DNA from: Chloroflexota bacterium
GTDB lineage: Bacteria > Chloroflexota > Limnocylindria > Limnocylindrales > CSP1-4
Assembly (NCBI GenBank): GCA_003141955.1
Contig: PLOC01000044.1
Location: forward strand, 1-46,154
Reading direction: 5' to 3'
Length of the DNA stretch: 46,154 bases
A program made the translations under genes and the position numbers. This document shows positions 10,049 through 12,306 of this stretch, piece by piece. Under the pieces are notes generated by a model. That model was not told the DNA's origin and did no database searches. It was given only the letters and a program-made list of their open reading frames with translations. Within the stretch, counting starts at the first letter, position 1, and every line of letters starts with the position of its first letter.

Positions 10049-11023
10049 ATCGAACCCAGGGACGAACGCATCGCGGTTGCCGACGGTCTGAGCCTGCGAG
10101 TGCTGCGCTGGGAGGTGGGCGCCGGCGCGGATGGCGCCGCCCCGCCTGGCGCCGGCGCGGATGGCGCCGCCCCGCCTGGCGCCGGTGCGGGTGCCGCCCC
10201 GGCTTCCAAAGGCGACGGCGCGGCTTTCCTGCTCGTCCACGGACTGGCGTCCAACGCGCGGCTCTGGGACGGAGTCGCGCCGCGGCTTGCCGCGGCCGGG
10301 CATCGCGTGGCAGCCGTCGATCTCCGCGGCCACGGCCGTTCCGACAAGCCGGACCGCGGCTACGACTTCGCCACCATCTCGGAGGACCTGCTAGCGCTAA
10401 TCGCCGCGCTCGGGTTCGTCCGTCCCGTCATCGTGGGCCAATCGTGGGGAGCCGGTGTTGTGCTCGATTTCGCCGTCCGCCATGCGGGCCTGACCCGCGG
10501 GATCGTGCTGGTGGACGGCGGCCTGACGGACCTGCGCGACGCCTTCCCGACGTGGGAGATCTGCTGGCAGCGTCTTGCCCCGCCGCAGCTCGTCGGTCTG
10601 CCGGTGAGCGACGTGGAGGGCTACTTCCGCCAGAACCACGTCGACTGGCCCAGTGAGGGCCTCGAGGCCTCGCTGGCCAACTTCGAGATTCGGCCGGATC
10701 GGACGATCGCCCCGTGGTTGACGCGGGAGCACCACAGGGCCATCCTCGAGTCGATGTGGGGCCAGCGAACCGCCGATCTCTGGGCCGCGCTGAGAGTACC
10801 GGCCCTGGTCGTCCCCGTCGACGGCGGTGAGGGCGACTGGACGAAGGCGAAACGCGCCGGGGCGGACGCGGCCGAGGCAGCGCTTCGCGCCTCCGGCGTG
10901 CCGTGTCGGGTGGAGTGGTTCAGCGGCGATCACGACATCCACGCCCAGCACCCGGCCGAGCTCGCGGAAGCGCTGCTGGCGGCCGATCGAGATGGCATCT
11001 TCTCCGGGGCGGTGCCGGCGTGA
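10049..11023 (+). CDS. Alpha/beta-fold hydrolase with an internal repeat near the N-terminus
   Basis: A serine hydrolase. Landmarks are the oxyanion region LLVHGLASNARLWD, LRGHGRSDKPDRGYDF, the nucleophile elbow GQSWGAG, and the C-terminal catalytic histidine in GDHDIHAQHP. The substrate is unknown. The start is a puzzle. The frame is open from 10013, and the residues before the first standard start (GTG at 10100) read EPRDERIAVADGLSLR, which looks like genuine family sequence. GAGGAG at 10037-10042 points to an ATC codon at 10049 as start, a rare initiation codon. If only standard starts are allowed, begin at 10100 (307 residues). An in-frame 10-residue Gly/Ala/Pro repeat lies close to the start. 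The stop overlaps the next gene (GTGA). Confidence 0.85.
   Translation: MEPRDERIAVADGLSLRVLRWEVGAGADGAAPPGAGADGAAPPGAGAGAAPASKGDGAAFLLVHGLASNARLWDGVAPRLAAAGHRVAAVDLRGHGRSDKPDRGYDFATISEDLLALIAALGFVRPVIVGQSWGAGVVLDFAVRHAGLTRGIVLVDGGLTDLRDAFPTWEICWQRLAPPQLVGLPVSDVEGYFRQNHVDWPSEGLEASLANFEIRPDRTIAPWLTREHHRAILESMWGQRTADLWAALRVPALVVPVDGGEGDWTKAKRAGADAAEAALRASGVPCRVEWFSGDHDIHAQHPAELAEALLAADRDGIFSGAVPA
10118..10200 (+). repeat. 30-base in-frame tandem repeat
   Basis: Two identical 30-base units (10118-10147 and 10148-10177) are followed by a diverged partial third. Each encodes GAGADGAAPP-like residues. The repeat lies between the first strand and the oxyanion loop of the hydrolase and keeps the reading frame. 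Confidence 0.9.
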
Positions 11024-12306
11024 GGCCCGCCGCCCTGCCGCGAATTCTCACGATCATGGGCTCGGGCGAGACGACGCCCACGATGGCCCGCGCCCACCGC
11101 ACCGTCCTCGATCGGTTGGGTGAGCGGCCGGTTTCGGCGGTCCTGCTCGACACCCCGTACGGCTTCCAGGAGAACGCCGACGACATATCCGATCGCGCGC
11201 TCGACTACTTCCGCGACAGCGTCGGAAATCCCTTCACCGTCGCCACCTTCCGTTCGGCCGACGTCGATGTGCTGATCCGCGAGACTGCTCAGGTTCGAAT
11301 CCGTGAGGCACGCCTGGTCTTCGCCGGGCCCGGCAGCCCAACGTACGCGCTCCGGCAATGGGTCGGCACGGAGATACCGAGGCTGTTGGCCGCGAAGCTC
11401 GGGCAGGGCGGCGCCGTCACGATGGCGAGCGCCGCGGCCCTGACGCTGGGCCGCTTCACGATCCCCGTCTACGAGATCTACAAGGTCGGTGAGGCACCCC
11501 GTTGGCTTTCGGGGCTGGATCTGCTGACGCCCCTGGGCTTGCCTGTGGCTGTCATCCCTCACTACGACAACGCCGAGGGCGGGAACCACGACACGCGCTT
11601 CTGTTACCTGGGCGAACGGCGGCTGCGCGTCCTCGAGGCCGAGCTGCCGGACGAGGTCTTCATCCTGGGCGTCGATGGGCATACGGCCTTGGTCATGGAC
11701 CTGGACACCGGATCGGCGTCGGTCCTGGGCCTGGGCACGGTCACCGTCCGAAAAGACGGTCGGAGCACGGTCTTCCCGGCCGGGTCCGAGATGTCGATCG
11801 CGGATCTCGTCGCGGCTGCCTCCGCGGCGGGCGGGGACACGGTGGCGATCCAGCCGCCGGTCGCCGCTTCGGTCGGCGTCGTGGCCGAGGCTTCGTCCTC
11901 GCGCCCGCTGCGGGAAGAAGTGGCCAACCTCGAGCGCATCTTCCAGACCTCGCTGGACGAGTGCGACGCGCCGGCCGCGGTGCGGGCGATCCTCGCGCTG
12001 GAGGAGACTATCCAGGCCTGGTCCCGCGACACGGACCAGTCGGACGCGCTGGCCCAGGCCAGATCGGCGCTGCGGGCGGCCATCGTCTGCCTGGGCGAGA
12101 TGGCGGTCGCAGGCTCGCGGGATCCAGCGGAAACCGTGGGCCCGTTCGTCGACGCGCTCCTGGCCGAGCGCCTGCGCGCCCGCGAGGCCCGCGACTGGGC
12201 CGCCGCCGACGCAATCCGCGACCGGCTGCTGACCGCCGGCGTCGAGATCCACGACACGCCCGACGGCACCTCGTGGGGGTTGCACCCCGCGCAGCCGGTC
12301 TCCTGA
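11020..12306 (+). CDS. Peptidase-E/glutamine-amidotransferase-like protein fused to a CysRS-like C-terminal domain
   Basis: A 428-residue two-part protein. Residues 1-285 resemble the class I glutamine-amidotransferase-like / S51 (peptidase E, cyanophycinase) fold: ILTIMGSGETTPTMARAHR at the start, VFAGPGSPTYALRQW, and GGAVTMASAAALTLG where a GxSAGA-type nucleophile turn is expected. HYDNAEGGNHDTRFCYLG and GVDGHTALVMDLDTG follow. From about residue 300 the protein changes to a helical domain like the C-terminus of cysteinyl-tRNA synthetase, ending AREARDWAAADAIRDRLLTA and then DTPDGTSWG. No synthetase catalytic domain (HIGH/KMSKS) is present. The GTG start overlaps the hydrolase stop, so the pair is translationally coupled. 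The function is unknown. Confidence 0.85.
   Translation: MRPAALPRILTIMGSGETTPTMARAHRTVLDRLGERPVSAVLLDTPYGFQENADDISDRALDYFRDSVGNPFTVATFRSADVDVLIRETAQVRIREARLVFAGPGSPTYALRQWVGTEIPRLLAAKLGQGGAVTMASAAALTLGRFTIPVYEIYKVGEAPRWLSGLDLLTPLGLPVAVIPHYDNAEGGNHDTRFCYLGERRLRVLEAELPDEVFILGVDGHTALVMDLDTGSASVLGLGTVTVRKDGRSTVFPAGSEMSIADLVAAASAAGGDTVAIQPPVAASVGVVAEASSSRPLREEVANLERIFQTSLDECDAPAAVRAILALEETIQAWSRDTDQSDALAQARSALRAAIVCLGEMAVAGSRDPAETVGPFVDALLAERLRAREARDWAAADAIRDRLLTAGVEIHDTPDGTSWGLHPAQPVS

Follow-up and report, generated by a model that had tools for sequence, protein, structure and literature searches.

A conserved bacterial protein family joining an S51-type serine hydrolase to the anticodon-binding end of cysteinyl-tRNA synthetase

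The 46,154-nucleotide window analysed here, contig PLOC01000044.1 of a Chloroflexota draft assembly (GCA_003141955.1), encodes a protein of 428 residues in which an S51-type serine hydrolase is joined to the anticodon-binding end of cysteinyl-tRNA synthetase (CysRS), without the catalytic part of the synthetase. The protein belongs to a conserved and uncharacterised bacterial family. Our best reading as a whole is that of a two-module enzyme in which a flexible linker connects the S51-type head and the CysRS-type anticodon-binding domain. The features discussed below are the following:

11020 to 12306, plus strand: whole open reading frame, 428 residues (S51-like hydrolase, linker, helical bundle, CysS_C)
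11038 to 11805, plus strand: putative serine hydrolase head with S51 (PepE/cyanophycinase) fold, residues 7-262
11428 to 11430, plus strand: Ser137, presumed nucleophile, in ASAAA; 100% conserved in the 108-row family alignment
11560 to 11562, plus strand: His181, presumed catalytic histidine, in IPHYDN; 100% conserved, 108 rows
11677 to 11679, plus strand: residue 220 (Gly here), which alignment to the GIDE motif puts at the site of the third triad acid
11806 to 11907, plus strand: variable and partly disordered linker, residues 263-296; pLDDT below 50 at 273-293
11908 to 12147, plus strand: helical bundle, possibly the anticodon-stem bundle of CysRS, residues 297-376; helices in the models
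12148 to 12282, plus strand: CysS_C (PF23493), homologue of the anticodon-binding domain, residues 377-421
10100 to 11023, plus strand: alpha/beta hydrolase directly upstream (PF00561, E 2.4e-22)

The open reading frame begins with GTG and is open throughout, and the AlphaFold2 model of its product is confident (mean pLDDT 88.7). A Pfam scan returned a single domain, CysS_C (PF23493), at residues 377-419 with an E-value of 2.7e-8 (34.2 bits versus a cut-off of 23); this domain is matched by 55 of the 57 family members at E <= 0.01. The NCBIfam cysS model (TIGR00435) aligns to residues 300-419 with E 8.9e-9, at 34.9 bits versus a cut-off of 340. Only its positions 342-463 of 466 are covered, and the class I catalytic domain of CysRS is absent from the protein, as a sequence-only reading of this DNA had noted. 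The best PDB match by sequence is Escherichia coli CysRS (1li5, residues 309-419, E 2.9e-9). That reading had assigned the last ~120 residues to the C-terminal region of CysRS. The assignment stands for the last ~45; the preceding bundle of 80 residues, searched alone against PDB by sequence, gave no significant match. The predicted tail (residues 297-428) begins with a helical bundle, after which come two helices and a hairpin. When the full tail model was used for a fold search of PDB, the sole significant match was 1u0b, the complex of E. coli CysRS with tRNA(Cys) (probability 1.00, E 2.1e-4; 133 aligned columns with 30% identity). The rmsd is 15.8 A, which means that the bundle and the terminal domain are not superposable on 1u0b as one rigid body. 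At the sequence level, homology with CysRS is secure for the terminal ~45 residues. Because a search with the bundle by itself finds no significant sequence similarity, its descent from CysRS is only likely, the match at the level of the full tail being suggestive. The tail is thus like the C-terminal anticodon-binding domain of CysRS (PF23493, 1u0b) in sequence, in predicted fold and in the residues that contact G34. However, CysRS possesses a class I catalytic domain, whereas here CysS_C is joined to a hydrolase instead. A search of the viral structure library with the tail yielded nothing below E 0.001; with E 0.24 and probability 1.00, a 46-residue stretch of the tail matched at 1.2 A a protein of 122 residues from an uncultured Caudovirales phage, named CysS_C domain protein (BFVD A0A6J5SUU1).

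In 1u0b, G34 of tRNA(Cys) is hydrogen-bonded by Arg427 and Asp436, stacked by Trp432 and contacted through water by Arg423 (PMC12684709). Alignment to the E. coli sequence places Arg423, Arg427, Trp432 and Asp436 at Arg384, Arg388, Trp393 and Asp397 of our protein. The equivalents of Arg423, Arg427 and Asp436 are invariant in 124 of 124 fusions (107 long and 17 short forms, with some redundancy among the rows because some genomes were fetched by two routes), and the equivalent of position 432 is W, F or Y in all of them bar one Met. More divergent copies from Streptomyces and Nonomuraea also retain the contact residues, as read by eye. These invariant residues strengthen the earlier proposal, a plausible one, that the tail could bring the hydrolase to tRNA, and the architecture suggests a hydrolase working on or near cysteine tRNA.

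The same residues are retained in CysRS itself and in a second Chloroflexota family, in which an N-terminal CysS_C precedes a family 2 glycosyltransferase domain; their retention is therefore necessary but not sufficient for tRNA reading. The second CysS_C match in the source genome (L002, contig C81:28294-28434, minus strand) is such a glycosyltransferase fusion and not CysRS, and its relatives (L169-L171, L173-L175, L177-L182) likewise keep the signature of two arginines, an aromatic residue and an aspartate. Both families carry CysS_C outside CysRS with this signature kept, but it lies at the N-terminus of a glycosyltransferase-fold partner in one and C-terminally on an S51 head in the other. 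This bears on the chief rival explanation, rated almost as probable as the tRNA(Cys) reading: CysS_C could be a general protein- or RNA-interaction module shuffled onto unrelated enzymes, and the head a small-molecule peptidase or amidase with no link to tRNA(Cys). Besides the glycosyltransferase family in the same Chloroflexota, the occurrence of CysS_C in a short phage protein and of the head in three tailless homologues (L117, L122, L124) would fit such a module. On the other hand, the side chains that contact G34 stay unchanged in a tail that otherwise mostly drifts, and a pure scaffold has no obvious need for both arginines and the aromatic residue.

No CysRS gene above the cut-off was found in the source assembly, which is a 95.6%-complete draft. 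The idea that CysRS is supplied as two pieces in this genome was set aside, since a normal CysRS gene is present in both congeners examined (G299 and G179). The missing gene is probably a gap in the draft assembly.

The head was assigned to the S51/class I glutamine amidotransferase-like fold by the sequence-only reading, and the models bear this out. By single-sequence search it matches the S51 peptidase 6nqc only weakly (E 0.025), whereas a profile built from 57 homologues reaches E 3.9e-7. Foldseek with the AlphaFold2 model gives 6nqc at E 1.4e-13, followed by PepE of Xenopus and Salmonella and by cyanophycinase, with probability 1.00. The Pfam model Peptidase_S51 (PF03575) does not match the 428-residue protein itself but matches 13 of the 57 family members at E <= 0.01, and the NCBIfam cyanophycinase model matches 25 of them. 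Ser137 is located, as anticipated, at the nucleophile elbow, between a strand (131-136) and a helix (137-142) in the AlphaFold2 model. An amidotransferase activity, also put forward earlier, is not indicated because the invariant elbow residue is a Ser of S51 type, where class I glutaminases have Cys; that reading was dropped. With PepE, the cyanophycinase CphB, MccG and 6nqc, the head shares a common fold over ~250 residues and a Ser elbow followed by a His, the elbow being SAGA in 6nqc and SAAA in the 428-residue protein. In contrast, the known structures of these peptidases have no CysRS-type tail, and the third acid is not conserved in the fusion family.

Catalytic triads of S51 peptidases are Ser-His-Glu or Ser-His-Asp (PMC9239234; PMC11078827). 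The third acid is missing from the 428-residue protein, which has Gly220 at this position as placed by alignment, with D219 beside it as a conceivable substitute; the 108 rows have Glu (66%), Gly (21%) or Ser (13%) there. From sequence and model, the head is a putative hydrolase with the S51 fold and two of the three catalytic residues. Triad heterogeneity and inactive members are on record for the S51 family (PMC9239234). Together with the Gly or Ser found in about a third of the fusion family, they could speak for a catalytically dead scaffold or sensor whose tail senses tRNA(Cys) or CysRS. We consider this improbable: Ser137 and His181 are invariant in the 108 rows, as are many polar residues near them (N184, E186, H190, D191, R193, C195, R201, E206), which points to a kept active site.

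The S51 peptidase MccG hydrolyses aminoacyl-nucleotide mimics, cleaving isoaspartyl-nucleotides that inhibit AspRS (PMC9239234). A similar detoxifier of aminoacyl-nucleotide inhibitors of a tRNA synthetase, with the CysRS piece as a targeting aid or decoy, is a still more doubtful explanation of the fusion, as the tail corresponds to the anticodon domain instead of the adenylate site, the examined loci showed no antibiotic cluster nearby, and the gene looks like part of a stable chromosomal pair.

The other member of this pair is the alpha/beta hydrolase, whose TGA stop overlaps the GTG start of the fusion gene (GTGA), in line with the translational coupling described from the sequence. Its Ser115 elbow (GQSWG) and HDxH motif are conserved (66 rows). 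A survey of the pairing, which had been suggested earlier, showed conservation across phyla: in 66 of the 97 loci with enough flank the hydrolase gene immediately precedes the fusion on the same strand, at identities from 86% to ~42%. About a third of loci lack it beside the fusion, among them those of Dormibacterota and some from Chloroflexota and Actinomycetota, and it is thus a frequent but not obligate partner. Other recurring neighbours are lineage-specific only. The N-terminus of the hydrolase as called (10100-10210, plus strand) contains a GAGADGAAPP-type repeat that homologues lack; translation of the hydrolase may in fact begin further downstream.

The long architecture was found in Chloroflexota, Acidimicrobiia, other Actinomycetota and Dormibacterota. 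Scanning GTDB returned 503 relatives, and the 80 that were kept come from these same groups. Among 400 Chloroflexota genomes, 135 match at E <= 1e-10, some of these matches being only CysRS tails; the head is present in roughly a hundred, as counted from match rows. The annotated Streptomycetaceae copies, on plasmid records, are named hypothetical protein. More than 100 partly redundant homologous loci carry the same fusion, which rules out a one-off event or an assembly artefact. Among 20 more distant Chloroflexota homologues, CysS_C follows the head in 17, in most cases with no bundle in between, and is lacking in three. This short form, with CysS_C close behind the head, is widespread in Chloroflexota (L114-L116, L118-L121, L123, L125-L132); the anticodon module is thus the part retained. 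Between near relatives, dN/dS is 0.09-0.14 in the head; the bundle has 0.09-0.33 and CysS_C 0.13-0.33, against 0.21-1.01 in the linker, indicating that head, bundle and CysS_C are all under purifying selection. Literature searches found no report on a cyanophycinase-CysRS link and nothing relevant on amidotransferase-CysRS fusions.

From sequence, models and analogy, we tentatively predict, as a proposal of less than even probability, a serine hydrolase that a borrowed anticodon-reading domain would anchor to tRNA(Cys). The CysS_C tail would dock on the anticodon arm of tRNA(Cys), and the tethered S51 head would hydrolyse a bond on or near the docked tRNA. The anticodon and the 3' end of a tRNA lie far apart, so the head would need the linker to reach the latter. 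The likeliest target would be an aminoacyl or acyl group, incorrect or modified, on the 3' end of tRNA(Cys), removed in a trans-acting quality control, and the coupled alpha/beta hydrolase may act in the same process. We count in favour of this tRNA(Cys)-directed hydrolase both folds, the multi-phylum fusion, selection on the domains versus drift of the linker, the contact residues, the keeping of CysS_C in the short form and the hydrolase neighbour. Against it count the signature kept in the glycosyltransferase fusions, which may then reflect the fold or a general module, the third acid missing from the 428-residue protein and from about a third of long-form members overall, the tailless homologues, the loci without a hydrolase partner, and the distance between anticodon and 3' end. 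Two precedents are at hand: MccG shows that the S51 fold can act on aminoacyl-nucleotides (PMC9239234), and, by analogy, archaeal ThrRS-ed, a truncated synthetase without a catalytic site that edits in trans, likewise is of hydrolase type, has parts derived from a synthetase and lacks an aminoacylation site (PMC9976931). However, the hydrolase fold of such trans-editing proteins is unrelated to the S51 head, and an editing role of the fusion is only putative.

This widespread unnamed family has an architecture that predicts binding of tRNA(Cys) through a known anticodon-reading patch. If the tRNA(Cys)-hydrolase reading is true, an unexpected hydrolase family would be added to tRNA quality control or tRNA-dependent metabolism. 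Its most specific form, unlikely at present, is a new class of tRNA(Cys)-specific quality control in which an S51 hydrolase would read the GCA anticodon via a CysRS domain and strip wrong or modified acyl groups. CysRS is not known to have an editing domain, and Chloroflexota and Actinomycetota would then possess a dedicated proofreader for cysteine. If the tRNA(Cys) reading is false, the anticodon domain of CysRS would be a reusable module outside translation.
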